DNA of 64,000 nt from Saururus chinensis (lineage: Eukaryota; Streptophyta; Magnoliopsida; Piperales; Saururaceae). The notes below the pieces were generated by a model that was not told where the DNA came from, ran no database searches, and was given only the letters and a program-made list of their open reading frames with translations. The DNA is taken from positions 43,442,668 to 43,506,667 of the forward strand of contig CP141145.1 in assembly GCA_035235625.1 (NCBI GenBank), read 5' to 3'. Of this stretch, positions 25,606-53,347 are shown one piece after another (position 1 is the first letter of the stretch; each line of letters starts with the position of its first letter). The position numbers were made by a program, and so were the translations under genes.

Positions 25606-26220
25606 GCACCCCTCTCTTTCAAGAGGATTCGCAGCATGTCAAGCCTTGGTAGGGTTTTTCACTTTGCATCTAATTACATGCTCCACCGATTATGCGGGCC
25701 TCATCAATGCCTTTGAGTTTCATTCTTGTGAACGTACTCCCCATGCAAGATACTTAGCATGCCCCTGTCAATTGCTTTGAGTTTCATTCTTGCAAATGTA
25801 CTCCCTAGGTGAGATAGTTAACGCATTGGCTATAACACTACACAAGTCGATACACACAATGCCTAGTATCCATCGTTTACAGCTAGGACTACTGGGGTAT
25901 CTAATCTCATACGCTCCCCTAGCTTTTGTCTCTCAATGTCAAGTGTCAGCCAAGCAAAGTGCTTTTACTGTTAGTATTTTTTTTCCAATCTCCACGCATT
26001 TCATGCTCCACCGGAAATCCCTGTGCCCCTACCGTACTCCAGCTTGGTAGTTTCCACCACATGTCCAGGTTTGAGCCTTGGGATTTGTCGTCAAACTTGA
26101 AAAACCACCTACATATGCTTTACGCCCAACCATTCAGGGATAATGCTTGCATCCTCTATCTTACTGTGGCTAATAGCACGGAGTTAGCCAATGCTTATTC
26201 TTCAAATACCGTCATTGAAT
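25606..26220 (-). pseudogene. Nuclear copy of plastid 16S rDNA, central portion (minus orientation)
   Basis: Read in reverse it matches 16S rRNA from about position 1010 down to 480. It includes GATTAGATACCCCAGTAGTC (reverse of 25888-25907, with one change) and GAAACTCAAAG, plus the GGTAGTTTCCACC and CTTTACGCCCAA blocks. A short internal duplication repeats TTTGAGTTTCATTCTTG (about 25710-25730 and 25776-25796). With the preceding plus-strand piece it forms a fold-back of one rRNA gene. Confidence 0.85.
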
Positions 26221-26363
26221 TTTCTCTAAAAAAACAAGTACCTCACTCCCCTCTTGCAACCATGAACCCCATTGCCACTACTGCCTACTCCTCTCCTCTT
26301 CTTCTCTTCCTCCTCTTCCTCTTCTTGGCATCTAGCAAAAGAAAGTGGTGGAGAGGCAACCCC

Positions 26364-31513: not shown

Positions 31514-31522
31514 AGTTTTTTG
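31514..31522. repeat. Left 9-bp target site duplication of the MULE
   Basis: AGTTTTTTG lies directly outside the left TIR and is identical to the copy at 53339-53347. Nine base pairs is the standard TSD length of Mutator elements. Confidence 0.9.
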
Positions 31523-31542
31523 GGCTTCGGATCGGCTGTGAT

Positions 31543-31570
31543 GCACTCCCACCGGGGTGGGTGGGAGTGC
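31543..31570. repeat. Terminal hairpin in the MULE TIR
   Basis: GCACTCCCAC and GTGGGAGTGC form perfect 10-bp arms around an 8-bp loop, 20 bp inside the element end. The same structure occurs in mirror position near 53291-53318. Confidence 0.8.
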
Positions 31571-33297
31571 CGAATCAGGTGAAACCACGTCACCAGGGTG
31601 GTAGCAGGAGACCGGGTTACTCGTTGACCCGGGTGACCGATGGCTTCGTGAACAGGACGACCGGGCGAAGGTATTAATTAGATCAGAACCGGGCGAAGGT
31701 ATTAATCAGATCAGAACCGGGCGAAGGTATTAATCAGATTAAAACCGGGCCAGGCCAGTGGAGTGCATTTCACGAAACCCAGAACTCCCGCTCTGATCTG
31801 CCCCGGTGATCCGATCAGCACTCTACGACTCACTCCGTCCCGCTGCTCCCGCTCCCACCCGGTGACCAGAGAAGCACCGATCGACGCCGGAGAAGAGTGG
31901 AGTGTTCTTCAAGGAACCCACTTTCAGAACTCCTGCTTCCACCCAACCCGGCGATCGGAAGAGCTCCCGCTCTGCTCTGCCCCGGTGATCCTTGGAGCAC
32001 TCTGCAACTCACTCCGTCCCGCTGCTCCCGCTCCCACCTGGTGACCAGAGAAGCACCGATCGACGCCGAAGAAGAGTGGAGTGTTCTTGAAGGAACCCAC
32101 TTTCAGAACTCCCGCTCCCACCCACCCCGGCGATCGGAAGAGCTCCCGCTCTGCAACTCACCCATCCCGGTGACCAGAGCAGCGGCGATCGACGCCGAAG
32201 AAGAGTGGTCAGGCAGCAACATTCTCAGAGGCAGCCGACACATAAAAAATGAAATAGGAGGTGCAGTCTGTTGGCGCTCGCTCCTGCAAGTCGGTCTGAT
32301 TCCCGTTCAACAGTCAAAAAAGCACGATCGTTGAGGTACAACAAACGAACTTGAGATGCAGATGCGCTTATGTATTTTTTTTTGTCTCTATCCGTCATTC
32401 CAGGGGAAAAAAAAAGGAACTTCAATTGTTTTAACATTCCATTTTCTTTCACGGACAACTTCTGGGGTTTGATTGTTCTGCATTGTGTTTCTTAACGCGC
32501 CAAAGTGACTGCTCCATCCCAAATTCTTTAGGTTCCATTTTCTTTCACAGATATTTTCTGGGTTTTGAATGTTCCACATTGTGTTTACTGCAAGCTTCAG
32601 TCACTACTCCATCCCAGATTCTTTAAAGAATAGAAAATTGGATTTTTTGCTTTTTACCACATTTCCACCGACCTGCATTTCGTTTGTTCCGCATTTTTTG
32701 ATGGGCTTTCTTTCAGCTTACCACGCTTCTATATGTCGGAGAGAATAAACTGCATATGCTCTGTGGTTATTTTTATTTTTGAATCTGAAGTCCTAGATCG
32801 ACAAAGTGAGGCCTTTTCAGCTCCTGCAAATCAAAATTATGTTGTCCAGAGCCTCTTCTCTGTTTTGCTTTTTCCAGGAAAAATTGTATCTTTTCCACTT
32901 TAGAATTTTTTGTTGCCTCGTCTCTTGATGAAACTGCATATGCTCTGTGTTTATTTTTATTTTTTAATCTGAAGTCCTAGATCGCCAAAGTGAGGCCTTT
33001 TCGTCTCCTGCAAATCAAAATTATGTTATCCAGATCCTCTTCTCCGTTTTGTTTTTTCCAGGAAAAATTGTATCTTTTCCACTTTGGAATTTTTTGTTGC
33101 CTATCTACTGATGAAACTGCATATGCTTTGTGTTTATTTTTATTTTTGAATCTGAATTCCTAGATCGCCAAAGTGAGGCCTTTTCGTCTCCTGCAAATCA
33201 AAATTATGTTGTCTAGAGCCTTTTCTCCGTTTTGCTTTTTCCAGGAAAAATAGTATCTTTTCCACTTTGGATTTTTTTGTTGCCTATCTGCTGATGA

Positions 33298-33955
33298 ACC
33301 TTGGAGCAATATTGTTCCAACTTGGAGCAATATTGCATCAACATTGGAGCAATATTGCTCCAACCAGAAATGTTCAATGATTTTGATGCATTTAATTGCT
33401 TACCGATTATTTTGATGCCTTCAATTCATATAAGCCTTGCAACAATATTGTTGTAGGGTTGGAGCAATATTGCTCCAACCTTGAGCAATATTGCATTAGC
33501 ATTGGAGCAATATTGCTCCAACTTGGAGCAATATTGCATCAACCTTGGAGCAATATTCTTCCAACTTGGAGCAATATTGCATCAACCTTGTAGCAATATT
33601 GCTCCAACCTTGGAGCAATATTGTTCCAACTTGGAGCAATATTACATCAACATTGGAGCAATATTGCTCCAACCTTGGAGCAATATTGCTACACCGTCAG
33701 AGCAATATTGCTACACCGTCAGAGCAATATTGCTACACCGTCAGAGCAATATTGCTCCAACATGAAATGTATTATTACTACACCGTCGGAGCAATATTGC
33801 TCCAACCTGATAGGTTTGATGATTTTGATGCCTTTAATTTATTTAAGTCTTGGAGCAATATTGCTACACCGTAGGAGCAATATTACTACACCTTAGGATC
33901 AATATTGCTCCAACCTTGCAACAATATTGATGCAAGGATTGAGCAATATTGCTAC
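33298..33955 (+). repeat. Palindromic minisatellite, left TIR
   Basis: Many copies of the perfect 20-bp palindrome TTGGAGCAATATTGCTCCAA and partial forms (for example GCAATATTGCATCAACATTG and GCAATATTGCTACACCGTC) at irregular spacing. Open frames reading EQYCSNL/NIAPTL across it are artefacts of the repeat. Confidence 0.92.
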
Positions 33956-34075
33956 AATTGTAAATTATAAATGCTAATAATTCTTAACAACATTATAACT
34001 TTTGTAATGTGCTTTTTGATGTTTCAGGAACAGTGTCTTCACTATAGTAGGGCTTCCTTTCATTGAATATCTATC

Positions 34076-37000
34076 ATGGCAACTAAATCAAGTAGGTTTT
34101 TTTTAATCCCTACGTTTAAAATGTTTGTGGATGTTGTTGATGTACTAATATTAATGCTTATGCATTAGGATTATTGCTCTTGTTATAGCAATATTTTAAA
34201 TGTTAATCCTATTATCAATAATTGAATTATATGCGACATTTTAAAGACATTATTGCTACAACATTTCTGCATTATTGGTAATTTTATAGCACACTAGCTA
34301 AAATGTTGTAGCATTATTTCAGCTATACTCATACCATCTTGAATATGATGCCAGTGTATATTTTAAATATTGCTATGTTATTTACGGGGTTATATTCAAC
34401 ACTTTTATTATATGTCTAGGTACCTTCTTACTAATACTTAGATATGTATTGATGCAGAAGTTCTTGAATCAAAGAAGAGGGGCTCAAACCTTGGAGGAGG
34501 ATCAGGAAGAAATAGGCGAGAGTCATTGAAAGTCCCTTGTTTCCCCTCGGGACTAGCAAAGTTAGTGAGCATATTGTCTACCTTCCCAGAGGTGAAGACT
34601 CTTGTTAGCCAAACCCCCTTCATCCAATTGTTAGACGCCAGAAACATCGTTTGTCAGGCGTTACTTTTTGAAGTAATTTTGGGTTATTGGACTGAGGCCC
34701 AACCTGGGGTCACATTCAAAGGATGTAGAGTGGACTTCACTATGGAGGATGTGGCCCTCATTACTGGCCAGAAGAAGGGGGGCAATCGGGTGGTCTTCGC
34801 CCAAGAAAGGGAGGAGAGGGGTGCGTATTGTAAGCATCGTTTTGGGAAGAAGCAGGTTACAAGATCTGAAATTGAGAAGACCATGGACGTTTTAACTGCC
34901 ACGACTGACCCTACATCGGTGGAGGATTGTGCAAGAACGATTATCTTGCACATTTTCTCATGCCTCCTATTTCCTCAGACCCACACTGTGGTCAAGAACG
35001 CGTTAATTGACCTGGTGGAAGACATGGGCAGCCTCCATCAATATGACTGGCCTCAAGCTATTTATGAATTTTTAGTAGTCTCAGCCTCAACCCTCCATAG
35101 GAAGATTATGTCGAAGGAGGGAGGCAAGTCTGAGGGCTATGGATCATTGATTGGAGCAGCATTTGTCCTACAGGTATTTTATACTTGCTACATAATTGTA
35201 TTTACATGATTATATAGGAGTTACAAAATGCTAATTTTTATCTTTTATATGTTATAGGTTTGGGTGTTTGAGCATTTTAAGATGTTCATATCCCCTGTGC
35301 CGCATAAGCTGCCCCGATTTGCGAAGTGGCCAAATTGTGGCATGCTAAAGGGGGAAAAAGAGGCTAAGCACCATAGGTCGGTGGGCAAATATGCACAAAT
35401 GTTTAAATTTCTGAGACCACAAGAGGTAATTGTGACTATTTTTTATATTGAAATGTTTGAGTTTTTAAAATCTGTTCAACTTTTTAGTTTATTGAACTTT
35501 GCATGTTAACTAATTGTGCATATGTTGACCACAGGTTCTATCTGTGTTGGTTCCTGTTGCGAATGAGGCAAATCTCATTGAAGGGGCAGGAAAGGCCTTA
35601 AAAAAAAGGAAGGTAGGAATGGAAGGTGGGGCGCTGGTGAAGGCGAGTGGGGGAGGAATGTTGGTCCTGAAGTCGGCACTAGATAATATGGCCTCTGCAC
35701 TTGGAGTTGTGCATACTGCCATGCATATATTGGAGGAGGAGGGCTACCCTACTGACCATCTACATGGTGTCATGGACACCATTTCAGAAAAATTTTTGAC
35801 ATTTAAGAACATGGCCAATCATTTGGTTAAGAGGCCATCAAAGAGGATGAGGCATACCTCCCCTGCAGCAGCGGACGAGGATGAAGGTGGCAAAGCTGAC
35901 GAGGAAGATATTGGAGATAATAATGATGATAATGAAGAGGAGGGTGAGGAGGATGGAGGGGAAGAGGAGGGTGAGGAGGAGGGAGGGGAAGAGGGGGAAG
36001 AGGTGGAGGAAGAGGGGGAGAGGAGGTGGGAAAGGATGGGGGAGAGGAGGAAGAGGGGGAGAGGAGGAAGAGGTGGGAGAGGATGGGGGAGAGGCAGGAG
36101 AGGAGGGTAGAGTGGATGAGGGAGAGGGGGAGAGGAGGAAGAGGGGGGAGAGGATGGGGGAGAGGCAGGAGAGGAGGGGAGAGTGGATGAGGGAGAGGGG
36201 AGAGAGGCGGATGAAGAGGAGGGGGGAGCGGAGCAAGGGGAGGATAAGAGAGAGGAGGGTCCAGTTGGGGAGTGCCGAAAGAATGATGAGGAGGGAGATG
36301 GGGAGGGAGATAAAGAGGGTCTCACTTCGAAAAGACCTCTACGGATAAAATATAAAAGTAAGAAGTATGGGACCCCTTTTACTCAGGAGACAAAGAAGAA
36401 GAGGAGGGAGAAGAAGGAAATGATTGTGGAGGAGGCTGCAACCATTTTAGTTTCTTGCGAAGCCTCAGCCAAGCAAGCATCCCGTACCTTCCCTCGCCGT
36501 CCAATGAAGATTAACTTATGCAGTCCTCTATCTAATTTGTGTACGCGAGATCAAGACACTATTCAAAAATTCATTACAGATAGGAGTCATTTTGTGGTGG
36601 GTGTCGGTGTCGCAGACAATGACTTAGTGGATATGTTGAAGGCGGAGTACATCTCGTCTAATGTAAGACTACAATTTCTATCTCTTTAAATCTTAAGTAT
36701 TCAATATTGATTTTATACTAAGTGTATGCTTCAATGTATGTAGGTAATAGATGCTTACATGTATATGCTACAACAAAGAGCATCTAGATCTACTGGAAAT
36801 GCCTTCCCCAAATGCCACTTTGGGACCTTTGCGTTGCAATTTTATTTCACCAAGGTATGGTCCAAAGCCTAATATTTTTATGTATTGGGTTAAGTTAGGA
36901 TATGGACTAAGTCAAATCCAATGGGAATTGCAATTGAAGGTTATGGCAGAGGACGCATTGGAGGACCTCGCAACCACATGTTTTGGAGCGGATAAAGAAT

Positions 37001-37576
37001 GTCCTGATTTCATCTTTATACCAATGTGTGACAATGCACATTTTCACTTATTGGTCATAGATGTTGACAAGACTGAAGTGAAATGGTTCGATTCCATGCC
37101 TGGGTATGGCCATAAGAAACGACATCCTAATGTGAAAAAATTGGTGAGTTAATGTATGATTCATTGAAACCAATTTTTCTTTAAACAATTGCTTTGAAAC
37201 TAATTTGGCAAATATGTGAATAATAGATGGATAGCATTGGAGTATTTCTTGAGGAGCACCTTAAGGTACCTAATGCTAAAAAGTGGAAGATCGTTAGTAA
37301 GAAGGGACCATACCAATCAAACGGGGTTGATTGTGGGTTCTTCCTCATGCGTACTGTATATTGCATTAGTTCTGGTTTGCCAGTTGATTATACTCAGGTA
37401 TAATGGGGTTAATAAGATATATGGGCCAATTGCATATATTTTTTTATTTCTTCTTTATTCCTTCAATCAAAATGGGATACTAACAAATTTATTCGTTTCA
37501 ACTTTTTTAGGAAGATATCTCTCAGCGTTTGAGACTTGGAATGGCTGCAGAGATCCTAAGAGGCTCTATTGATTGA
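34076..37576 (+). pseudogene. MULE-borne Ulp1-like (peptidase C48) gene, frame interrupted
   Basis: This gene encodes a long plant transposon protein with a C-terminal Ulp1/SENP-type cysteine protease domain; C48 enzymes cleave SUMO or related modifiers. Likely exons: 34076-34091, 34458-35173, 35258-35425, 35535-36662, 36744-36854, about 36895-37143, 37227-37396 and 37511-37576. The N-terminal ~300 residues (CFPSGLAKLVSILSTFPEV, DFTMEDVALITGQKKGG) look like the domain that precedes Ulp1 in such transposon genes. The protease core shows DNAHFHLLVID (catalytic His region), WFDSMPG (Asp) and NGVDCGFFLMR (catalytic Cys). An acidic Glu-rich tract at 35880-36320 is coded by GA repeats, and the frame breaks there (TAG at 36108). 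The 40-bp gap before 36895 is too short for a normal plant intron. Alternative splicing around the tract is possible, so loss of function is likely but not proved. Confidence 0.8.
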
Positions 37577-38439
37577 GTATGAGTCTTTATGGTGATGGTG
37601 AGAACCTTAAATGATATGTATTAATGTTTCCTAGATCCATAGGTATGTATATATGAAAGGGGTGAATCTAACATTTGCTTGGGCTTTACTTTGTATTAAA
37701 GGTTGAAAGCTGATGAATTTGGTTTCCGTCGGTTTTTTTTTATTCTACTACTTACATTGGTGGTTAGATGAATGAAGACAAAAGTTCCCGGTTGAGACTG
37801 TCATGGGGTCTTTTGTTTTTATCCGCCCAATATTTAACTCTCTTCTTCTTCATTATCTCCTTCTTCAATGTTTATCACCCAATTATTTCTTTTTGTCCAG
37901 AAAAAGGTGATGATAGATGAGAAGCTTTTGTTTTAAAAGGTAGAGTATAATACAAAGGTTCTCACCGAATTTATATTCATCTCTTTTTCTCTCACTTTCT
38001 ATCAAATGCTTATACCAAATTCATTGACAGTTCGCCATTATTTGCTAGAGGTCTTCTAATGAAATGTATGTTTAATTTTTTTATGATCCTGGTTGTTCAC
38101 TCGTCAATTAATTTCGCCATAACCCTCATTCTTTGAATATTACCCAATTAGCTTTCAAAAGAAAACTAACTATTGCTTTGGCTGATCCTAGTTGTTCTCA
38201 CTCATCAATTAGATACGTCATGACACTCATCCTTTGAACTGTTACCTAGCTATCTTAAAAATGAAAATTGTTTCTGCATCATGTGATTATATGTTGAAGT
38301 CACGATTTGTGGTGTGATCCATATATGGGACATGGTGATATACCTTTGTATTTTACATTTTTTCCTTTTTGTTTTGAATAATAAAGAGCATTTGCAACTA
38401 TGTTTAATAAAACGTTGGCCCATTTGTTTGTGGTGACAG

Positions 38440-41280
38440 AATCATCTGAGACTTGAAATGTAGGCAGAAATTGAAAAGTCTGGACGACTTTCATTGATAG
38501 ATCTTGCTGATAATATTGGTGATGATTTGTTCTATGTGGAGATGCAGTCTCGATAGATAGTTTCTAGCAATTCAGATCTCATGCTAATACAAGGAGATAT
38601 AACAGCTCAATCCTATTTGGTCTGCGATTCTTTGAAGAAATTAATGAGAGGCTTCGAGAATGTAGTCAAATTGCATTAGCAGATCTCGCTGCTCAGTTGC
38701 ATGTCAGCTCAGAGTTGCTGGCTTCTGTTTTGGAGACCCGTCTTTGGATTCTTGTAAGCATATATTTCTCCTTGCATTTATATCATATAATGTTTGTGTG
38801 ATTGTAGATGACCACTGTATGCAACAGGGTGTCATGAAGTTTGCACTTTGTTATCAAATTATATCTTTCCCCTTGTTGAAACCACATAGTACATCAACGT
38901 GCCAACTTTGTATTTGTAGGATATGAAAAATGCTGTAGAAAATTTAATATGATTCTTTGTGTCGCCTTGACCAATTTATAGCCAACATCGACAATTTTAC
39001 ATATTTCATGAATAGTTATCACCTTTACTATCATCTTATCTGTTGCTCATTTGAGAAAATTGAATTTGATTGAGATTATGGCACCCACAAAGTGTGGATC
39101 ATCTGCTGCTACTAATTGACTAGTGGATACTTATTATCTTTCTCTTGTTTATTTTTATTTTCTTCATCCTACGTTAACATGCATTCAAATTCTTCCATGT
39201 TAAATTCAATGAAACTTTTTATCATGTAATAATTTTGTGTATGCCAAAAACCTCATTGTCAAGTGGAGCAGTAGCTAGGAATATCATTTATGTGAATAAC
39301 ACAATATCATATGAACTTAACTATTCCAAGAAAATAAAGATGAACAGAAGATTAGGTTAACTACTGTTTATAAGTTAAAATGTTCTTCTACAGGGATATG
39401 TGGAGCCAAAAAATATGAGGTGCTACTCATAGAAACGTAGATCTGAATATAATCCTTTGAGTTCTAGTCATAATGGGATTTTATACTTCTGAGAGCTAAA
39501 AGAAATACCAGGCAATCACTTGTAGCCATGTCACTGGCCTATGAAGAAAAGGATCTCCATGACTTTTACAACTTTTTTCTTTATTTTTGTTCTCTGAGAC
39601 ATTCTTTACTACTCAAAAATATGCTTCATCAATAACCATTTGTATTTATCATGTCTCCAATTGTCAAAGCAGTACCAACATTACAATTTTATTCTTTCTA
39701 GATGCAAGGAAGACTTGAGGGAGGATAGCTGTATACACCTGCATATGTTGCACGTATTAATGCTATGGTGCGTGGAGCTTCAAGGGGTATCATTGTTCCC
39801 ACTAATTTATCAACAGTTTGGAGCTCTCTACAACAATTATTAATTGAGACAGATGGATTGAGTGGTGTATCTGTTGAAGGTGTTTTCTTCCAATCTTTAT
39901 GTAATGGTCTAGTTAAGGAAGGCGAGATACTTGGATCACTTCGTGCTGGAGTTCAATGGACACCTGCTGTATGAAACATCTTATTAGCATTTGTTGCTCT
40001 TAATTATGTTGTGGCTTTCAAAATCTCCAATTTTCTGGCTTGATTTGCTTAAATTTACGTGAACTTTTATGATAAAAAGTTACCAGGATTAAGAATGTGA
40101 AAATGGGAGCAAATTAAACTGTTAGTAATTTGATGAAGGTTGTTGTGGGACACTTATTTTTAAATGCTGTTGTCGGTTTTGTCTTTGCAGGTTTTTGCCC
40201 ATGCTCAAAGAGAAAGCATAGAATTTTTTTTCACTTAGGTAGGAGTGCATACTAGCTTTCCAGCTTGAAACAGATATTTATTTTTAAGAAAAATTAATGC
40301 ATACATCATCCTTGCTGCCTTTTCTGATATAATTCCCCTTGTGGATTACAGGATTGACTGCCTTTCAATTCTACCTGCAGTTTATGGGCCTCAGGATGCT
40401 CCAAAGGTTTTGTCTCTTTGTTCATCAGTTAAGAGGGCACTTAAGGTGAACCTTTTTAATGTTTAAGACACTTCTTGGACATGTACTTTGATTTTGAATT
40501 ATTTCTCACACATCACTTCCCCAGTCAGCTAAAGCAACTATTCTAGGGGAGTATTGTGTGTTGAGTACCAATTTCATCAAGGTCAGTCTATAGATCCTAG
40601 TCCCTTGGTATTTAAGATTTCTGCAAATATATTTTTTTCCCTTTCCTTTGGTCTCTTTTTATTTGTTTGTTTATTATGAGGTTATGTCATTCTCCCTTTC
40701 TTTAATGTGCAGGATGTGTTCGGTCTCCTAGACAAAGAAACAAAAACTCTTACTCATATAAGGGCTTCTCATGACACTGTTCTTTCTTTTATGTGAAATA
40801 AAAAGAAAAATTAGAAGCCCACCCTTTTAATCTAAGGTAGTCTTTTGTATGGCATCTTAGTTTGGTCTTTACCTTCTAATGGCATGACAATTTGTGAATG
40901 AGGATTTTTATTCTAGTTTATTTCTTTTATGAGAAATAAAAGCCCAAGATTTATATATTTTTATAACATCTTTTTCATATCTCCTTCCAGGCCTTTTTGG
41001 ATATTCAACTTTATGAGAAAGCCCTCGATTTATTTGAAGATGATCCATCAACCTCAGTATGTTTTTCATTGTTGATCTTATGCTATAGTGTTTTGTACTT
41101 AATATGGATATTTAATATTTGTAGAATGATGATGCTAAGATTTTCTTCTTTAAATTTTAGGTAATTCTCCTTAGGCATCTGCTAAGGACGACATGTTCAT
41201 CTATGGTGGATTTTCTTTTATCAAATTTGGTAAAATTTACTTCACCCACTTAATCGACTGATTCTGTAAGGATGACACTG
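38440..41280 (+). pseudogene. UFL1: Captured UFL1 fragment (E3 UFM1-protein ligase 1)
   Basis: Exon-like blocks match plant UFL1, the E3 ligase that attaches UFM1. In order: GRLSLIDLADNIGDDLFYVE (38475-38550), RLRECSQIALADLAAQLHVS (38650-38705), YTPAYVARINAMVRGASRGI then VPTNLSTVWSSLQQLLIETD (39733-39855), FFQSLCNGLVKEGEILGSLR and WTPAV (39885-39973), then a DCLSILPAVYGPQDAPKVLS block (40355-40445). After these come ATILGEYCVLSTNFIK (about 40525-40580) and YEKALDLFEDDPSTSVILL then RHLLRTT (41011-41190). They are separated by intron-like DNA, so the gene was captured as genomic DNA, not cDNA. In-frame stops (after DLRLEM-type sequence, after MQSR, and TAG before LYTPAY) and missing segments show decay. 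The 5' end of UFL1 is absent. The neighbouring CTR1-like piece follows in the same direction. Confidence 0.85.
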
Positions 41281-41339
41281 TCTGCAAGGACAATTTCTCT
41301 TAGTCGGGAAATAGCTCAGCTTGTCGGAGCAGTCCAAAA

Positions 41340-42233
41340 TGACCAAGAAACATTGCAACAACCATGGAGTAACCTGAATCCTGCACAGGTTTGTTAAGGG
41401 CTAGCATGCATGTGTTTGAACAGTTATAAGTTCTAGGAAATAATGGAACGAGCATGTCTGAGAAAGATAATCTACGTCGTTACATGCATTGGTTTACCCG
41501 GTCAATTCCTGGGTTTGTTTGGTTAGCAAAATACCGGAAGTAACAAGCACAAATTTTCTTGCAAAAAAGACATAGCCTTGGTAAATGAATGACTTGTATT
41601 TGGTTCCATTTACAGTTAAATTTTTTGTTGCTTTTTGTTTCCCTATTATATGTCAACTTAATCTTTAACTCTCTCTCTTGTGCCCCTTTTTTTTTGGCTT
41701 TCCTCATGCAAGATAAGCATGGGTTTTCCTTCCCCCCCCCCCTCACTTATTTCATATATTTGTAATCTTTTTCTTCTCTATCTAATCAAACAGCTTCGTC
41801 AAAGTCGTTGTAAACATGTATTCTATTTATGAAATGGAGATCTCAGGCATAAAGAAATAGACAATAATAATATATTTACTTAGACTGCAACACAGAGTTT
41901 GTTGCTGCCTATTCTATCTCGTTTCAGAGTATTTCACTTTTACAGGTAGTGGCTGTTGTTGGTTTCAAGGGCAGAAGGCTTGAAATTCCGAGTGATATTA
42001 ACCCTCAAGTCGCTGCTGTGATTGAGTCCTGCTGGGTCAAGTAACTAGATAACCGAACATCCATTTTTCGTTTTGGATTCCCTCTTGCAGCAATGAACAC
42101 ATCTTTTGTTCGTAAAACTGTAGGGACCCTTGGAAGAGACCATCTTTTGCCAGTATCATGGAGTCTTTGAAACCCATGATAAAGCCTTCAACACCTCAAC
42201 TAGTTCTTGCTGAAGTATCACAGCTTACATAAA
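41340..42233 (+). pseudogene. Captured 3' end of a CTR1-like Raf kinase gene
   Basis: Three exons survive: about 41350-41388 (TLQQPWSNLNPAQ), 41946-42040 (VVAVVGFKGRRLEIPSDINP then QVAAVIESCWVK) and 42124-42233 (DPWKRPSFASIMESLKPMIK then PSTPQLVLAEVSQLT, stop TAA). Splice junctions are intact and in phase. LQQPWxNLNPAQVVAAVGFK and EPWKRPSFAxIM are characteristic of the last kinase subdomains of CTR1, the Raf-like negative regulator of ethylene signalling. The rest of the kinase is missing. It directly follows the UFL1 fragment, so a transcript could join the two. The junction between the sources lies somewhere near 41290-41350. Confidence 0.85.
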
Positions 42234-43614
42234 ACGTGAAATTAGTTGCTGAGTGCTTGTTTCTCGGCATGGACGTTGTTTTTTGGTGAAGCAATTCTAG
42301 TGGGAGCGGCTTGTGTGCAGATTGTCACATGTACAGGACTAAATCTATTTTGTGGATGAGTTTCAATTATTTTTTGCTTCTACCTAACTCTTACCTCTTA
42401 TTACGTTGGTCAATCAGAGTGCCCTGCTATCTACACTCTCTTTGTTCTGTTGAAGGCGAGCTGCTATCTCACATTTCAGGCTGAGTTTCAAACGCCCAAC
42501 TTCAAATCTTTTTTCTCCGCAATCACTAAATGTGTATGGTCAAATATCTTAATATGTTTTTTGTATGTATTATTATTCCTGTGTAATTAAATGTCTAACT
42601 CATAGAGAAAATGAATTATATGCGAAAAGTGAGCAATTGCTTCACTAATGTCCAATATTTACATAATGCTTATTGTACAAGCAGGGATTCTTCAATAGAT
42701 GGTCGTAAATTTCGATTCTTGGTTTGCAGGCAGCAGCGATTGATTTCATTTGTAATATCCGGACAGTTAATTATGTAAGCATGCTGGTTTTGCCTCTTTC
42801 ATCCTTTCTTATAGGGACATTTGTGATAGAAACATGGCGGTGATCATTGTTCGGTTATTTCGTCTCAAAGAGAAGAACGCATGGATGATGTGTTTATGCG
42901 TGGGCTCCACGCCATGGCCTGGACACATGGCTGTTATAGCCTTGCAGGACTTCCATGCTATATGCTAAGCCTTAAGGAACCAAACCTAGTCCTCTACGTT
43001 AGAAGAGTTTTCGTTTTCTACTTCTCATTGACAATGATCCCAACCTAAACTATGCATAGGAGATCGATAGTGTATATGTTAGGGCATGTTAGCGTCTGTA
43101 TTACTATGAGCGTCGTTAATCTTATATATCAACTGCTTTCGTATGTAGCTTATGCTGGGTTTATTGTTATAGGGGAGCATAAATTGATGTAAATTTGCTT
43201 ATGCTTATTTTGGTGTGATAAAAAAAAAGATTAGTGTGCAAAACCACCATTTCTAAATTTTGAATGCATGAAGGGCATCCCCACCTTGCATGACCTCTGG
43301 TTGGCAATGCTTGTATGATTTTTTATTTTTGTGTTTTTGCCAAGAATATTAGCAGCACAAAAGTAGAAAAAGGGTGCTAATAACCATACATTGCTACACC
43401 AAAACTTGTCTAACAAAACATTATATTTGGTCTTGATTTAAGAATCCAAAATAAATATACATTTTATTAGACAAATTCTCGTATAGAAAAATCATTATCA
43501 TGTAGGAGGCCTCTTATTGCACTAACACATTGTTCGGTAGGAAGGAACACACGCATCTTATAAGATTTGGTAATTTTTGTTTTCTAATTGTCTTATTTTT
43601 GTTTTCTAAGGGCA
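42234..43614. other. MULE interior without recognised genes
   Basis: The first part may be captured 3' flank of the CTR1-like gene. The remainder shows nothing coding or repetitive that I can identify. Confidence 0.4.
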
Positions 43615-43616
43615 TT

Positions 43617-44470
43617 GCTACTGTTAGGGCAATATCGCCCCAATATTTAAGCAATATTGCTCCAACATTAAAGCAATATCGCTCAAATGTTGGAGCAATA
43701 TCGCTCCAAAATTGCTACAATATCGCTTCAATGTTGGAGCAATATCGCTCCAACATTGGTGCAATATCGCTCCAATGTTGGGGCAATATCGCTCCAACAT
43801 TGGAGCAATATCGCTCTAACATTAAAGCAATATCGCTCAAATGTTGGAGCAATATCGCTCCAAAATTGCTACAATATCGCTTCAATGTTGAAGCAATATC
43901 GCTCCAACATTGGTGCAATATCGCTCCAACATTCCTACTGTTGGAGCAATATCGCTCCAACATTAAAGCAATATCGCTCAAATGTTGGAGCAATATCGCT
44001 CCAAAATTGCTACACTATCGCTTCAATGTTGGAGCAATATCGCTCCAACATTGGTGCAATATCGCTCCAATGTTGGAGCGATATCGCTCCAACATTGAAC
44101 ATTAGAGCAATATTGCTCCAATGTTGGAGCAATATTGCACCAACATTGGTGCAATATCGCTCCAACAGTAGCAATGTTGTAGCAATATCGCTCCAACATT
44201 GGTGCAACATCGCTCCAATGTTGGAGCAATATTGCTCCAACATTGCTACTGTTGGAGCAATATCGCTCCAACATTGAACATTAGAGCAATATCGCTCCAA
44301 CATTGCTACTGTTGTTGCAATATCACTCCAACATTGAACATTAGAGCAATATCGCGCCAATGTTGGAGCAATATCGCTCCAACATTGGAGCGATATTGCA
44401 CCAATGTTGGAGCGATATTGCACCAATGTTGGAGCTATATTGCTCCAATGTTGGTGCGATATTGCAGCAA
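43617..44470. repeat. Palindromic minisatellite, central array
   Basis: About 850 bp of tandem copies with the core TTGGAGCAATATCGCTCCAA, interspersed with AATATTG forms. It differs from the TIR arrays mainly by an internal CG, which is also the methylation-prone dinucleotide. Both strands read as EQYRSN/NIAPTL-type artefact frames. Confidence 0.92.
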
Positions 44471-44749
44471 GTTTAGCATCTCTTTTGGATGAACATTGAT
44501 GTTATTCACTATAAATTTGTTTCATATTAAGTGTTTCCAAGTGATAATTTCTCTTAATGGAAATTTTAAATTACATTTCAAAACTTGAGTTCGTTAATGC
44601 TTTGATGATCACGCTTAATATATTAATGCATATGAAACTTACTAGGTTCCAACTACTCTTTTAGTATTTACTTCATATTCATTCCCTCTAACAAACATAT
44701 CAAGTAATAAAATGATCAAAGATAAGAACGAACCAAACAAAAATTTCTC

Positions 44750-45200
44750 TACACTTTCGTTGGGCATGAACTCATAGATCAATAATTTTTATTCTTAGCG
44801 GATGCACCATCCCAAAAGCCTAACAAGGTTTTAGTGCTAGAGCTTTGCAATTAGTTCCACCTCATTCTTGAACCCTTCAAATCCCTGTCCTGAACTTTGA
44901 GAGAGCCTTTTCACAGCTATTTCTTGACCCTTTACTAATTTTTCCTTGCAAGATTGCCATTAAGCTCCTTTAATACCTAGATGCTTATGATTAATGCTTA
45001 GTGAGCTATTTTATAAAATATCTATTTTTATGATCCTCCAATTTCTTTTCTTATGTTTCTATGGAGTTACGGTTCTTAAAATCCCTACAATGAAGTGGGG
45101 AAAAACCATATAAACATGTCCACATCCACCCTCTCCAAGCTTGTTGGCCGTAAAGAAATTCTCAGAGTATGCAATATTGTGATAAAGGAAAACAGAGTAT
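44750..45200 (-). pseudogene. Captured S-domain receptor-like kinase fragment
   Basis: On the minus strand, 45170-45100 reads NFFTANKLGEGGCGHVY (the glycine-rich ATP loop), and about 44950-44760 reads [20 protein letters not shown] then [13 protein letters not shown], with NLVRL and LIYEF beyond stops. [18 protein letters not shown] is typical of S-domain (SRK-like) receptor kinases. Stops and a gap between the blocks show that it is dead. No extracellular domain is present. Confidence 0.75.
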
Positions 45201-45299
45201 GCAATATTGTGCACAAATAAGAAACACTGGCAGTCCCATCTTAGGCAAGCCCCACCCATCCAAACAATAAGAATGAGGTCAACACATTTTATTTGGGAT

Positions 45300-46260
45300 C
45301 ATGTAATATGTGCAGCTTTAGCCATACTGCATCAAGGAGGATGTTTGAAGCTTTAACATCGCGATATATCACTTGACATTCTGAATCGTGCAATAATGTG
45401 AGTTCTCATGCAGCACCAATTGCAACTTTGATTCTTATATCCCAAGAAAGTGGCTGAGCTCCTCCTGAAAAAGAGGTCCATTTTCTATGAGATGCAATAT
45501 AACTAAAAAGAAATCAACAACTACTAAATAGATATCTTTACGTATTAACAGGAGTCACAACAAGTACACAATCATGTCCGTACACCACAAACAAAGGCAC
45601 TTCATTATACATGAATTATATGAAATCTACGTCTTTAAATGTTGAAAGTGTGGGATTTTTTTTACTTATGACAAACGTTTCTCCCGAAGATGCACAAGGA
45701 GCATGATTTCATTTCCAAGTAACATAAAACAAAGTAGTTCTAATTTACGTTTAAATAGGTGGTTCTCTAGACTACCTTTTGGCAAGTACTCATAGACCCG
45801 ATGTCGGTAGTCACCCTCGAGCAATAACCAATGAGCTTACCTAGATTTGGATAGTGAAGTTGGTCGAGGTCTTGCACAATTGTCTGTCCACATCAGTTGT
45901 GAAACCAAATTAATAACACCAATAAAACTGAGAAACTTAATTAAACAAATTCTATAAGAGAAGAAAGGCTTACCAACCACTCTTTGTGGCCTTGAAAACC
46001 ATATGCTTTAAGATTCTTCACAGCAACAACCATTCCAGATCCAGGCTTTAAAGCAGTTATTGTTTGCTCATCGACCCATCCCTTGAAAACATAACCGAAT
46101 CCTCCTTCTCCAAGGAGAGATTCTCGTATGGAAGTTTCTAGTCGCATTTACGAGCTGATTGAAAGGGAAGTTCTTCAAATATGGGGATGACGAGATTTCG
46201 CACTCAGTTTGTGGTGTTGGAGCATTAGAACTACCACTATTCTACATTTGTAAGATGGCA
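45300..46260 (-). pseudogene. Captured RLCK-VII (PBS1/BIK1-like) kinase fragment
   Basis: Minus-strand exon blocks: 46240-45973 gives SSPYLKNFPFNQLVNATRNF, then after a frameshift SLLGEGGFGYVFKGWVDE and PGSGMVVAVKNLKAYGFQGH with KEWL. The block at 45890-45775 gives a shifted DLDQLHYPNLGKLIGYC, and 45460-45330 gives AQPLSWDIRIKVAIGAA, a stop, then VIYRDVKASNILLDA. These match plant RLCK-VII kinases from the N-terminal motif to subdomain VIb. The gene lacks its C-terminal half. Introns are retained, so capture was at the DNA level. It sits next to the S-domain kinase piece on the same strand. Confidence 0.85.
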
Positions 46261-48048
46261 GAGTCAAACTTGATACACTTGTAGATAGTTTTCTCTTGCT
46301 GTTGGTTTTTGAAGCCTCTGATCCAGAGATATAATGGAGTTACAAAAAGGATACAATGTTATACACATTTTGTCTCCTGATTCTTTAAAACTACAACCAG
46401 TATGAAGGAAGAATAAAACCTAAGAATTGAAGAATATTTTATAGCAAGTGTGAACAGAGCACGCAAATGCTAACAGGAAAAAGGGAAAGGAGAACATTTT
46501 ACAAAGAAAGTACTATATTCCCCCTAATTAAATAGTCCATGGATAACCAAATGCTATATGTCCTAGAAATCCGGAGATAGAAAATCATAACTTTAAGATT
46601 GATGTTGCCGAGTTAATATGGCCTTAATTATGCAACGTAAAAATCACCTCAAATCATATACTAACTTGGTTGCAAAATATAACAGAAAAAACTTTGTGGT
46701 CTACACCTCGAAATATCTCACTTCTAATCCCACAGCCCAATTAAAAAGAGCAAATTAATATAACATGAAAATAAGCATATTTAGATCATTTGTCCCAACT
46801 AAATCTATACAACGAAAAACTTAAAAAAAACCAAGCACTTTCACTTTTCCAAAACATTAACTAAAACATACATACCCTTGTTCCTAACTAAAAAATTAAC
46901 TAAAACATAGAGCAAATCCCAATGTTCCTAAGTTTAACAAGTGAATATCAATATAAACATAAATGGTGGATCACACAAAAATACCTAACAAGGTTTCACA
47001 AATCTACGGAATATTGCACTGGTGATGGAATAAGAACTCCTTCAAAGTACCTGTTTATCTTTCATATGCAGGTAAGCAATAGTTTAAAAAACTATATCAT
47101 CATTGCAATATTGCTGCCTGTAACATAGTTGCCAAATCAGTTACATGTCTACCTATAAAGCTTAAAATATTATGGTACAATTCCAATAATCAAAGTTCCA
47201 TCATCAAGTTTATGATTGCCAAACATTGATAGGAACTATATTATGAACAATCAAGCCTCTTGTGAGTCATTGTTCTTACAGGTCTGACCACAAAACGGTC
47301 ATTCTTATTACGATATACAAAAGCAAACGACAATTTAGCATCTCTTCTTCTTGCTTGAGGATCAACCTCTTTGATCGGAAAAAGTTTATAAATGTGTACA
47401 GTTCATGTCCAGGAAAAAAAGTATTACAAAAGACTTCAAGAGGGGTAATATAAAATTTAATATACCATATCTATCAATTCATGAATTGTATCATCCTTCC
47501 ATGTTTAAATTTATACTTCATCCTTGGGTTCCTTATCTCTCATTGCAAAATCTTCATTGGAATGGTGCCCACCAATCTACACTAAATAGAAAGCATTTAG
47601 ACAGAACAACCAAATGACAAAAGGAGAGCTACATAATATGATTAGTGTGACACTCATCGAAGTTGGATTCATCACCATGTTTGAGAATATCTACAAAATA
47701 ACCTAGCTTTCTTTTTTTTACAAACTCGATTCCAAAGACTAGATTCAATACAAATTGTTACATAGTAGCATCATGCAGGAAAAATTACCTCATCTATTTT
47801 CCAAATCGTAGAAATTGTCTTCAACCTTCCAAGATTACATATAACATGACTTAACAAAATGTTACAAAATGTTATCAACCTACTGTGATTCATATAGCAT
47901 CACTTAGCAAAATGGCAAAAAATATTTTCAACCTCCTGCATAAAAAACCACTTAAAATTGTAATCAGTAAAAGCTTATAAAAACTGATTTTATACTTCAT
48001 GTTCAATTAATAACAAGTGATTAATATCTATTTTTACCTGAATTGGCT
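46261..48048. other. MULE interior without recognised genes
   Basis: AT-rich DNA between the captured kinase fragment and the transposase gene. I recognise no coding homology. It may include further captured introns or untranslated DNA. Confidence 0.4.
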
Positions 48049-50622
48049 TCAGCTAAACCTCAGTTGAGGTTTAGGAATCTGCAAGTGGCTTGATTCTATG
48101 GGAGACATACTGACTTGCTGATGCACAATGTAAATAAATTTACTAAATCATATTTTGCTAAAACTATCAAATAAAATACTTTAGTTAAAGCAAATGATTG
48201 AACTTACCTCAAGTAAGTTGGAAAAACTTTCGATACCTCTAGGAGTATCTTCGCAACAAAATGAATCCTATAATACATGCCAATAATTTAGAATTATATA
48301 GAATACAAAAAGACATGTGATAGTATCTATAACATAGTGAATAAATATAATTACTTGAGGTGGCTGAAACATTGGGATATGAGGTCGAAGCTGCAATTGA
48401 GGCAATTGAGTACATGAGGCGGGAGACTGCTGAGTGCTTGGACTTGATTGCTTTTTTTTCTTGTGATGTCTCTCAAGGCAACCCCTCTTCCTCGCAGCTG
48501 CTTTACCATCACGAGCACGTTTCTCCCGTATTTTTATCCCTGATGCAGGTACCTCAATATTTTGGTCATTGATATCCTTTTGTGCGAGGGTCTCATGCAT
48601 ATTTGCAGCCTTATCTTGAAGCTCATTTTGATGAGTTTGCTTCAATTCTTCATCTATTACTTGGGACATAATTTTAGCTTGAATCATTGTTGCCTTATAT
48701 GCCACTTCAGATTCAGCACCCCGTGCTGCTATGGCAATCAATATACGTGACAACTCCATGAAGCGTGTTCCCATAGCCTTATGTGGGTCAGTGTCAGTAG
48801 TTGTTGAAGTTGAATTCATTATGACCTGAACTTTTGCATCTCTTGACCACCGTCTGATTATGTATTGGGAAGGGAGCATCTTCACACATCTACTATCAAA
48901 CACTTTCAATGAATGACTGCATAGTATTCCTGCAAATTCAAACTTCTTACAACTGCAAACAATTGTGTGATCTTGTAAATCAAATGTGACATTGTGTTGA
49001 CCATGCTTTCCTACAACTTTGAACTCCATTGTTGCTCCTTTCTCTATATATTCATGAATTTCACAATCTAAGTGATCTTGATACTCACTTAAAAATATTT
49101 CAAAAGCAGCTGGGGTATAAATTTTTGCCGCTTGTGCTAACATTTTAGAGAACATGAGTAACCTAGGAGTTCTATCCAACATTTTAAAATCAGCTTGTAA
49201 CTCTTGAAAACGTCGATCATCTACTAATCTATCAAAATGATGAAGAAACTCCATAGGATTTATTTTAGAATTTACATACCTCCTCAAAATACTGTTCATA
49301 GATTCACTGCACTGTGTGGACTTCATTCCCGCACAAAAATGATGTCGACCATAAGCCATAGCCCATTTTTCCTTCTCACGAAACAACTGAAGCAACCACG
49401 GATGATCTTGAACTGTATATTTTTCAATCATCCTATTCCATCCCTCTAAGAACTCCTCCTCTGTTTCAAACTCAAATATGCATTGTTTTAGATCTCTTGC
49501 AAATGGTGAAACTTTTCAAAAACATGGCTGAGATGTTTAGTTGCATTCGATATATATGCCATATACATAGCGATGATGGGTTTCCGGCATAACAACTCGA
49601 ATAGCTTTAGTCATTGCTGCACATTGGTCCGTAATGATAGTAACCGGTTTCTTACGGACATTGCAACAAGATAAGTCTCAAGTAACCAAATAAAAAGAAT
49701 CAATGAGTCTCATCATATAACAAGGCAGCCCCAAATATGGTATTTTAGCGATGATGATTTACACCAGTGAACAATGCACATGGCCAATTTATGTTAGTAG
49801 TTCTATACGTGGTATCAAAGCTGATCACATCCCCAAAATTCTCATAGTCTACTATCATCCTCGCATCTGCCCAAAAGATATTAGTTATCGACTATCTTCA
49901 TCCAACCGCATTGAGTAGAAGAAAGATGGATTATCCTTTTGTTTTCTTTTGAAGTATTCTAACAAAGCCGCTGCTTCTCCTTTTTCCATCACCTTTTGAC
50001 GCTTAGTACGTAAATAATTTTTCAGATCCACTGCAAGAAACCCTACATTTTGTTGACCACCAGCTTGGCTTGCTTGCAAAGCTATAGAATCTTTAGGTGG
50101 AATGCCTACACTTGCCGCTGAATCAGCCAACACAGATTGAGACATACTCATGCGTCTATGTGAATTCAAAAATGGAACCTTTGTTGGGGTCACAACCATG
50201 TGATTATGACTTGGCTCAAATTCTACAATTTTATACATGTCACCTACAAGCTTGATAACCATCATAGCTAAACAGCCCGTTCATGTTTCTGGACGAGGAT
50301 TCTTCACCACTCTATTTCTTTTATCTTCAACTCTTTTGCCTTCTTTTGAACAACAAAATCTTCGCATTCTAATTATGCCATCTTTTTTCCATTTCCATCC
50401 TCTTCGAATGCTAAATCCAATTGTTGCACTATAATCATTGTAGAATTTGTAAGCCATCTCCTCTATTGCAAACTCCATTCCAATATTTGGTACTCTTTCT
50501 TCTACTTCATGAAAATCTAATTTTCGACAAGCAGAGTTTACTTGGCTTCCTATTTGAATGTCATTTTGTTCATCACCTTCATTATGCCCATCACATCGAA
50601 CACTTGACCCCTCACTTGCCAT
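48049..50622 (-). pseudogene. FAR1/FHY3-like MULE transposase, inactivated
   Basis: This is the mudrA-type transposase of the element. The start is MASEGSS at 50622, or a Met six codons upstream at 50640. Order: FAR1 DNA-binding domain (GMEFAIEEMAYKFYNDYSAT, FCCSKEGKR, TGCLAMM, SHNHMV), then a transposase core, then a SWIM zinc finger (CSCKKFEFAGILCSH at about 48960-48910) and a basic C-terminal part (KRARDGKAAARKRG). Likely 3' exons are 48267-48208 and 48117-48049, ending TGA. Lesions: an in-frame TGA at 50281-50283, between RPET and TGCLAM where the family has Arg, and several small frameshifts between 49884 and 49430. The remains VISFDTTYRT and TIITDQCAAM of the DDE region are still readable there. 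The downstream 387-codon frame is otherwise intact. It faces inward from the right TIR, as expected for MULEs. Confidence 0.9.
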
Positions 50623-50729
50623 TGCCCTACACAAGTCCATAAAAATATTATGAAGAAAAGAAGGGAATATATTCAAAATTTTGAAACTAAGACATTTTAT
50701 TAGTGTGTAACAAAATACTATATGGCTAT

Positions 50730-51560
50730 ATTGTAGCAATAATGCTCCAATAGTGTAGCAATATTGCTGCAATGTTAGAGCAATATTGCTGCAAAGTTGG
50801 AGCAATATTGCACCAACAGTGTAGCAATATTGCTCCAAGGTTGGAGCAATATTGCCCCAATGTTGATGTTATATTGCTTCAAGGTTGGAACAATATTGCT
50901 CCAACAATGGAGCAATATTGCTCTAATGTTGATGCAATATTGCTCCAAGGTTGGAGCAATATTGCTCCAAGGTTGGAGCAATATTGCTCCAATGTTGATG
51001 TAATATTGCTCCAACCCTACAACAATTTTGCTCCAAGACATATAAATTAAAGGCATCAAAATCATAGAACATTTCAGGTTGGAGCAATATTGCCCCAATG
51101 TTGATGCTATATTGCCCCAATGTTGGAGCAATATTGCCCCAATGTTGATGCTATATTGTCCAAGGTTGGAGCAATATTGCTCCAACCTTGGAGCAATATT
51201 GCTCCAATGTTGATGTAATATTGCTCCAAGTTGGAAGAATATTGCTCCAAGGTTGGAGCAATATTGCTACAAGGTTGATGCAATATTGCTCCAAGTTGGA
51301 AGAATATTGCTCCAAGGTTGATGCAATATTGCTCCAAGTTGGAGCAATATTGCTCCAATGCTAATGCAATATTGCTCAAGGTTGGAGCAATATTGCTCCA
51401 ACCCTACAACAATATTGCTGCAAGGCTTATATGAATTGAAGGCATCAAAATAATCGGTAGGCAATTAAATGCATCAAAATCATTGAACATTTCAGGTTGG
51501 AGCAATATTGCTCCAATGTTGATGCAATATTGCTCCAAGTTGGAACAATATTGCTCCAAG
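50730..51560 (-). repeat. Palindromic minisatellite, right TIR
   Basis: Mirror copy of the left TIR array, with the same TTGGAGCAATATTGCTCCAA core. A non-array insert matches the left-TIR segment reading TGATTTTGATGCCTTTAAT. The copy number and order differ slightly from the left array. Confidence 0.92.
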
Positions 51561-53338
51561 GTTCATCAGCAGATAGGCAACAAAAAAATCCAAAGTGGAA
51601 AAGATACTATTTTTCCTGGAAAAGCAAAACGGAGAAAAGGCTCTGGACAACATAATTTTGATTTGCAGGAGACGAAAAGGCCTCACTTTGGCGATCTAGG
51701 AATTCAGATTCAAAAATAAAAATAAACACAAAGCATATGCAGTTTCATCGATGAACGAGGCAACAAAAAATTCCAAAGTGGAAAAGATACAATTTTTCCT
51801 GGAAAAAACAAAACAGAGAAGAGGATCTGGATAACATAATTTTGATTTGCAGGAGACGAAAAAGCCTCACTTTGGTGATCTAGGACTTCAGATTAAAAAA
51901 TAAAAATAAACACAGAGCATATGCAGTTTCATCAGTAGACAGGCAACAAAAAATTCTAAAGTGGAAAAGATACAATTTTTCCTGGAAAAAGCAAAACAGA
52001 GAAGAGGCTCTGGACAACATAATTTTGATTTGCAGGAGATGAAAAGGCCTCACTTTGTCGATCTAGGACTTCAGATTCAAAAATAAAAATAACCACAGAG
52101 CATATGCAGTTTATTCTCTCCGACATATAGAAGCGTGGTAAGCTGAAAGAAAGCCCATCAAAAAATGCGGAACAAACGAAATGCAGGTCGGTGGAAATGT
52201 GGTAAAAAGCAAAAAATCCAATTTTCTATTCTTTAAAGAATCTGGGATGGAGTAGTGACTGAAGCTTGCAGTAAACACAATGTGGAACATTCAAAACCCG
52301 GAAAATATCTGTGAAAGAAAATGGAACCTAAAGAATTTGGGATGGAGCAGTCACTTTGGCACGCAGTAAACACAATGCAGAACAATCAAACCCCAGAAGT
52401 TGTCCGTGAAAGAAAATGGAATGTTAAAACAATCGAAGTTCCTTTTTTTTCCCCTGGAATGACAGATAGAGACAAAAAAAAAAAATACATAAGCGCATAC
52501 GCATCTCAAGTTCGTTTGTTGTACCTCAACGATCGTGCTTTTTGACTCGAACGGGAATCGACCGACTTGCAAGAGCGAGCGCCAACAGATCGCACCTCCT
52601 ATTTCATTTTTTATGTGTCGGCTGCCTGCGAGAATGTTCTTTGCTGACCACTCTTCTTCGGCGTCGATCGCCGCTGCTCTGGTCACCGGGATGGGTGAGT
52701 TGCAGAGCGGGAGCTCTTCCGATCGCCGGGGTGGGTGGGAGCGGGAGTTCTGAAAGTGGGTTCCTTCAAGAACACTCCACTCTTCTCCGGCGTCGATCGG
52801 TGCTTCTCTGGTCACCAGGTGGGAGCGGGAGCAGCGGGACGGAGTGAGTTGCAGAGTGCTCCAAGGATCACCGGGGCAGAGCAGAGCGGGAGCTCTTCTG
52901 ATCGCCGGGTTGGGTGGGAGCGGGAGTTCTAAAAGTGGGTTCCTTGAAGAACACTTCACTCTTCTCCGGCGTCGATCGGTGCTTCTCTGGTCACCGGGTG
53001 GGAGCGGGAGCAGCGGGACGGAGTGAGTCGTAGAGTGCTGATCGGATCACCGGGGCAGATCAGAGCGGGAGTTCTAGGTTTCGTGAAATGCACTCCACTG
53101 GCCTGGCCTGGCCTGGTTTTGATCTGATTAATACCTTCGCCCGGTTCTAATCTGATTAATACCTTCGCCCGGTTCTGATCTAATTAATACCTTCGCCCGG
53201 TCGTCCTGTTCACGAAGCCATCGGTCACCCGGGTCAACGAGTAACCCGGTCTCCTGCTACCACCCTGGTGACGTGGTTTCACCTGATTCGGCACTCCCAC
53301 CCACCCCGGTGGGAGTGCATCACAGCCGATCCGAAGCC
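50735..53338 (-). repeat. Right terminal inverted repeat of the MULE
   Basis: This is the reverse complement of the left TIR with the same internal block order. It ends ...GCCGATCCGAAGCC at 53338. The ~180-bp GC-rich repeats are at about 52640-53040 and the ~185-bp AT-richer repeats at about 51570-52110. The inner limit is approximate. Confidence 0.9.
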
Positions 53339-53347
53339 AGTTTTTTG
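53339..53347. repeat. Right 9-bp target site duplication of the MULE
   Basis: AGTTTTTTG directly follows the right TIR and is identical to the left copy. Confidence 0.9.

Follow-up and report, generated by a model that had tools for sequence, protein, structure and literature searches.

How does a Mutator-like element (MULE) come to hold a transposase gene, a second gene of the Ulp1 type and several pieces of host genes between one pair of long terminal inverted repeats (TIRs), and does such a unit move as a whole? The question is raised by a 21.8 kb element at positions 31523–53338 of the window, by which we mean the entire 64,000-nucleotide stretch of Saururus chinensis DNA analysed here (contig CP141145.1; C6:43442668-43506667), and was followed through the 516 Mb genome in 11 contigs. 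The explanation that we consider probable overall is that the element is a full-length, transposase-dead member of a 21.7–22.5 kb MULE family, moved and shaped in the manner proposed below. Sequence comparison shows repeated insertion of one unit, made up of TIRs, FAR1-type DDE transposase gene, PMD-Ulp1 gene, palindrome arrays and cargo, and most insertions still display a 9-bp target site duplication (TSD) of their own. The original prediction, made from the window alone, of a large, formerly autonomous TIR-MULE with a FAR1-type transposase and a Ulp1-like gene is borne out, the transposase frame of the window copy now holding 11 in-frame stops. Its overall interpretation stands only in part: this is not a lone, odd element but one of a multicopy family that was amplified with its cargo aboard.

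The ends of the element are sharply defined. The 9-bp sequence AGTTTTTTG occurs in identical form at 31514–31522 and 53339–53347, directly outside the termini GGCTTCGG.../...CCGAAGCC, as originally described. Alignment of the two ends, which had been expected to share 2.4–2.6 kb, pairs 31523–33952 on the forward strand with 53338–50934 on the reverse strand, giving TIRs of 2430 bp (left) and 2405 bp (right) with 94.47% identity (2440 columns, gaps counted); over the outer 1770 bp, 44 of 1761 bases differ (2.5%, gaps excluded). The left TIR contains tandem repeats of 28 bp (3.2 copies), 179 bp (2.1 copies) and 183 bp (3 copies), and past the best alignment the likeness between the ends goes on as 22-bp arrays. 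A chance origin of these TIRs is excluded by their length alone and by their recurrence at other loci. The MULE-type DDE domain, the TSD of 9 bp (8–11 bp in the superfamily) and the TIRs place the element among MULEs, where TIRs are commonly hundreds of bp and thus shorter than the 2.4 kb seen here.

Other copies with the same ends, on whose existence the original prediction had staked itself, do occur. The outer 678 bp of the TIR gave at least 55 matches genome-wide and at least nine further convergent TIR pairs 21–22.5 kb apart, with the best 40 of 186 candidates scored. We compared ten elements: the window copy, seven of the nine full-size pairs, one pair 12.8 kb apart and one 16.9 kb apart. 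Six of the fetched copies are colinear with the window copy and 98.5–98.6% identical to it over 21–22 kb (gaps excluded), and the seven full-length copies including that of the window show pairwise identities of 98.48–98.87% (21,136–22,164 aligned columns, 459–1,277 gap columns left out). Perfect 9-bp TSDs flank seven of the ten elements (window, C3:20.05, C6:21.55, C6:20.37, C8:35.27, C5:15.42 and C9:6.22 Mb), each with a different sequence, and that of C5:32.44 Mb has one mismatch. The combination of colinear, near-identical copies with different perfect TSDs shows that the whole unit transposes.

The amplification is likely to be recent. When the two TIRs of one element are compared over their outer 1770 bp (gaps and arrays left out), the difference is 0.9–2.5% in seven of nine elements, which is about that between copies, and the idea that TIR divergence predates the copies was dropped on this ground. 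The other two, C1:40.13 (7.8%) and C5:15.42 (9.7%), have divergent TIR pairs although their interiors closely match the amplified copies; this divergence suggests that the TIR at one end was exchanged, possibly between subfamilies. Of the copy-private substitutions, 47–64% (70 of 124 in the window copy) are C>T or G>A, as would be expected of methylated DNA. Plant substitution rates are about 0.65–1.3e-8 per site per year, which would put the burst at roughly 0.5–1 million years ago.

The cargo that had been proposed is confirmed by two donor genes found in the same genome, from which the corresponding pieces were captured as genomic DNA with introns. The first, at 37701–41268 (+), is a UFL1 fragment with introns, internal deletions, and a one-base insertion (frameshift) and TAG stops in exon 2. 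Its donor lies at C1:61983129 onwards (61.98 Mb), the sole match to positions 1–53 of PF09743 (53 of 53 candidates scored). Donor bases 61983518–61988596 are represented in the element, introns included, but are interrupted by two deletions and contain a short repeat that has been rearranged; the pieces are 92.5–97.8% identical to the donor. More donor sequence on the right is kept at C5:15.42, C10:37.12 and C2:16.24, which is most simply explained by a single capture of ∼5.3 kb that was trimmed later. With 30 of 30 candidates scored, the UFL1 exon was found at 25 places in the genome, one of them the donor.

The second piece, at 41349–43598 (+), is the 3′ part of a protein kinase gene that we take, from its motifs, to be Raf/CTR1-like; its Pfam match (PK_Tyr_Ser-Thr, 9.8e-5) falls slightly short of the cut-off. 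Alignment of this piece with C2:48762448-48760175 gives 94.0% identity (2282 columns); that locus (C2:48.76 Mb) also has the upstream kinase exons, and the 7.9 kb fetched there showed no TIR end. With all 39 candidates for the 2.2-kb query scored, the piece is whole in eight elements and partial in four; 13 other places have only a neighbouring 84-bp remnant and 13 are short, weak matches. That remnant, at 41270–41353 (+), is common to many relatives and derives from a further captured gene, presumably ZNHIT2-like; a Pfam search of a longer version in one relative gave no match. Captured receptor-kinase-like fragments at 44645–46241 (−), which we assume to be RLCK- and CRK-like, match kinases weakly (0.0069). 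With the best 40 of 64 candidates scored, this block occurs at at least 40 places, the longer matches being 86–98% identical, and no donor was found among them; such recurrence suggests that it is probably older and more widespread.

The UFL1 piece was evidently frameshifted and degenerate before the recent amplification. The one-base insertion in exon 2 is common to six amplified copies (C6:4.67 left out) and C5:15.42 and is absent from C9:6.22, and the exon-2 matches of the amplified copies contain stops. Compared with the donor, exons of the six copies differ by 4.0–5.1% and non-coding parts by 4.9–5.8%, in contrast to 2.0% and 3.7%, respectively, for C9:6.22. Since exons have diverged nearly as much as non-coding sequence, the UFL1 cargo is best regarded as a passenger and not as a maintained gene; selection on it in the amplified copies was rejected on the basis of the stops, the shared frameshift and this divergence.

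Two shorter elements illustrate how the unit may be remodelled. The 12.8-kb copy at C8:35.27 Mb has lost element positions 5966–15189 (9.2 kb, the whole cargo) across a 4-bp microhomology, AAAT, and retains its perfect TSD. The possibility that it represents a cargo-less ancestor was rejected, as the junction shows only this microhomology while sequence in C9:6.22 and C5:15.42 (diverged) runs unbroken across its left breakpoint; C8:35.27 is therefore a deletion derivative. The 16.9-kb element at C9:6.22 Mb (C9:6.216-6.233 Mb) is a non-autonomous relative that would qualify as a Pack-MULE: it shares the same UFL1 piece, has TIR pieces 84–95% alike and carries an AAA-ATPase fragment (PF00004, 2.8e-38). 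No transposase match was found in it, and the Ulp1 region was matched only at its 3′ end. Its TIRs are extended and take in what is probably this Ulp1 3′ end. A nested Pack-MULE as the source of cargo, considered because element positions 5931–6175 match the inner TIR ends of C9:6.22, was rejected, the match probably reflecting the Ulp1 3′ end taken into those TIRs.

Both genes of the element had been placed inside the TIRs and said to read inward; the orientation holds, whereas both genes lie just inboard of the TIRs, the Ulp1-like gene from 34442 to ∼37569 (+) and the FAR1-type frame from 50853 to 48271 (−), in convergent arrangement. In the window copy the transposase gene also has a frameshifted DDE region and a degenerate MULE domain. 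The 863-amino-acid frame of the C6:20.37 Mb sibling matches FAR1 (1.1e-18), MULE (PF10551, 2.9e-28) and SWIM (2.7e-4), with FAR1 N-terminal and the SWIM finger C-terminal as in FAR1/Jittery-type transposases. Uninterrupted 863-amino-acid frames are present at at least two other loci (best 53 of 4529 candidates scored). The nearest public protein, from Magnolia sinica and annotated as FAR1-RELATED SEQUENCE 5-like, matches 84% of the query with 52% identity. When three relatives at a greater distance (71–90% protein identity) were compared, the ratios of non-synonymous to synonymous substitution rates (dN/dS) were 0.54, 0.35 and 0.41, which argues for past purifying selection; values for the window copy and other near siblings (0.52–0.88) were not used because of frameshifts and few changes.

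The second gene (34442–37569, exon limits approximate) encodes a SUMO-protease-like PMD-Ulp1 protein. Exon 1, with the PMD/DUF1985 region, lies in frame 34442–35206, exon 2 starts at 35258, exon 3 spans 35529–36686, exon 4 (36751–37149) supplies His and Asp and exon 5 (37227–37400) Gln and Cys, with a probable last coding piece near 37512–37569. In the C6:20.37 Mb sibling, PMD (6.7e-12, above cut-off) and Peptidase_C48 (8.3e-11) were identified, DUF1985 fell under the curated cut-off (4.4e-7) and DUF287 was absent from the domain listing. The His, Asp, Gln and Cys of the sibling align with those of SENP1, which we take to be the catalytic residues; the window copy keeps these predicted catalytic residues, and all six of its exon parts that were checked are open. 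A homologue search of public proteins found nothing, but low-complexity words probably filled the candidate list, so that this is uninformative on novelty.

What may be the most informative feature of the element, a set of three palindrome arrays, did not figure in the original prediction. TTGGAGCAATATTGCTCCAA is a perfect palindrome of 20 bp that recurs with a spacing of ∼22 bp, about two helical turns, in a left array (33300–33957), and related arrays lie in the centre (43622–44470) and across the inner end of the right TIR (50731–51560). Both TIR-side arrays have T-type cores and the central array mainly the C-type core GCAATATCGC; a lone core lies at 47105. All 72 matches in the window (three mismatches or fewer) fall within the element, where none is expected by chance. 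Genome-wide, 529 exact sites were found, compared to 0 for the reversed control, and 39 of 50 listed places, all on contig C1, are within 15 kb of a known family match. Neither fetched donor stretch contains the core on either strand.

We propose that the transposase would bind the conserved outer TIR and move the whole unit, and that gene pieces would enter and be trimmed during gap repair, as the 12.8-kb copy may illustrate. Less certainly, the PMD-Ulp1 protein might bind the tandem palindromes in the non-coding parts and lift host silencing, with the cargo as a passenger. In VANDAL elements, VANC proteins combine DUF1985 with DUF287 and bind short motifs tandemly repeated in non-coding regions of the transposable element (PMC5735166, PMC10398659), KIU genes are described as VANCs with a Ulp1 domain (PMC13317346), and an anti-silencing role has been speculated for MULE-captured PMDs (PMC5418596). 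The PMD-Ulp1 gene and the arrays resemble this anti-silencing module, on a FAR1-type transposon; tandem motif arrays in non-coding parts are observed here, with the arrays as the putative target of the PMD-Ulp1 protein. By this analogy, a MULE family of the FAR1 type that does not belong to the VANDAL lineage would have its own VANC/KIU-like module, consisting of the PMD-Ulp1 protein and the three arrays, that let a 22-kb, cargo-laden element amplify intact despite a length for which DNA transposition is described as inefficient, a proposal that we put forward tentatively.

Alternatively, the arrays could be bound by the FAR1-type transposase or serve as promoter elements for both genes, with PMD-Ulp1 acting elsewhere, for example by de-SUMOylating host factors. 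We regard this as a serious possibility, though somewhat short of an even chance. It accords with the position of two of the three arrays at the inner edges of the TIRs, beside both gene starts, and with reports that Mutator TIRs hold transposase binding sites and promoters (PMC3310237), but the third array is in the middle of the element and thus distant from both ends. Moreover, C9:6.22 has a central array and only six T-type cores in its TIR parts, yet a perfect TSD, and the 12.8-kb C8 copy, conversely, lacks the central array and still has a perfect TSD. It seems unlikely that the arrays represent neutral minisatellites that slippage and unequal exchange have spread: their copy numbers do vary among siblings, but the dyad symmetry and ∼22-bp spacing are maintained in three separate arrays of two sequence types, and all ten elements examined have at least one array, including the one that lacks the central array.

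Several observations weigh against the proposed family history and its anti-silencing module. The transposase of the window copy is dead, and in comparison with the near relative C5:15.42 constraint is not evident, the 25 fixed differences looking neutral (21 non-synonymous and 4 synonymous; 19.9 and 5.1 expected). In the window copy the Ulp1 frame is interrupted within exon 3, at the purine-rich linker, which reads through in one of nine elements checked, C6:4.67 Mb; as that copy is itself broken in exon 1, there is no complete Ulp1 gene among the elements checked. The palindrome could instead be a transposase site, and 11 of the 50 listed C1 places lie more than 15 kb from every known family match. 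Finally, two of the ten elements have no matching TSD at their predicted ends: at C6:4.67, CCTTAGGAG/CCTCAGGAG fit with one mismatch only once shifted by one base, and the right end of C1:40.13 (C1:40149776-40149777) abuts the TIR of another family element. A UFL1 match is also present just past the latter copy, at C1:40152127.

Transposition of one unit is itself hard to replace. Several copies do lie on contig C6, as spread by segmental duplication would allow, but their flanks differ and different perfect 9-bp TSDs sit exactly at the TIR ends, which already refutes this for the TSD-bearing copies and makes it very improbable in general. Ordinary host genes caught between two separate MULE insertions have a negligible chance of being the explanation: family elements can sit end to end, as at C1:40.13 Mb, but TSDs and recurring colinear copies already refute it, the same 22-kb order being found at six other fetched loci (four of six with their own perfect or one-mismatch TSD) and the donor genes lying on other contigs, with no TIR end in the kinase donor stretch.

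The element was originally said to mix classes normally seen apart, which is too strong. In grapevine, ULP genes have been described in MULEs with TIRs, in those without and in Jittery-like ones, some Jittery-like families having ULP sequences downstream of the transposase, and a MULE family with pieces of a cellulose synthase gene is known as well (PMC2528002). Plant Jittery members share the FAR1 N-terminal region and a SWIM (or CCHC) finger with the present family, but their TIRs are given as 39–292 bp or none and they are listed without PMD, which is noted for several of groups 42–50 (PMC6446971); Jitvine-1 and -2 measure 11.9 and 14.4 kb, and no TIR is given for either (PMC2528002, Table 4), whereas the window element has 2.4-kb TIRs, several host fragments and palindrome arrays. 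Mutavine-1 is likewise very large and multicopy (17.7 kb, 12 copies with potentially functional open reading frames), but has a 70-bp TIR and is listed with MuDR-like families (PMC2528002, Table 4). Arabidopsis VANDALs with KIU or VANC genes are similar in having a second gene with a DUF1985-type N-terminal region, Ulp1 in KIU, and tandem repeats of short motifs (PMC5735166, PMC13317346); they are called non-TIR MULEs (PMC13317346), though TIRs of 46–174 bp are given for some (PMC6446971), and the present family differs in its FAR1-type transposase, 2.4-kb TIRs and PMD above but DUF1985 below cut-off, any anti-silencing role being putative.

Like Pack-MULEs, the family is multicopy and holds host fragments between MULE TIRs, here intron-bearing and with the UFL1 and kinase donors located. 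However, Pack-MULEs are defined as non-autonomous (PMC3310237) and small, none of the Jiang 2004 set exceeding 7 kb as cited in PMC6431247, whereas this family is 22 kb and carries a transposase gene, uninterrupted at two loci. Searches of titles and abstract beginnings in an open-access library brought up no paper on a FAR1-type MULE that joins PMD-Ulp1 and tandem palindromes to kilobase-long TIRs and several host fragments. MULEs with ULP genes or transduplicated fragments are already known; what is new here is an unusually large, long-TIR, cargo-loaded element amplified intact.

Elsewhere in the window, a 436-amino-acid open frame at 10515–11825 (−) belongs to the PRISE family (progesterone 5-beta-reductase/iridoid-synthase-like) and has its closest relatives in Tasmannia (63% to Tasmannia lanceolata) and Magnolia, also at 63%, among the best 7,997 candidates by shared words scored. 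Fragments of organellar/bacterial-type small-subunit ribosomal RNA (Rfam RF00177) in opposite orientations at 25322–25550 (+) and 25808–26282 (−) are probably inserted organelle DNA, and short repeats of a TTAGCGACGC-type motif at 20050–20196 and 21211–21300 are possibly the ends of another transposon.

Our results describe an amplified, potentially self-mobilising MULE that combines a transposase, a Ulp1-type gene and several host-gene pieces in a single 22-kb unit and, with two donor loci identified, allow capture, decay and amplification to be put in order. DNA transposition is reported to drop sharply above 6 kb of cargo, as cited in PMC6431247, and a naturally occurring family of 22-kb elements whose TSDs are fresh is relevant to this limit. 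The PMD-Ulp1 gene and its palindrome arrays likewise bear on the question of whether anti-silencing encoded by transposable elements occurs beyond the VANDALs of Arabidopsis.

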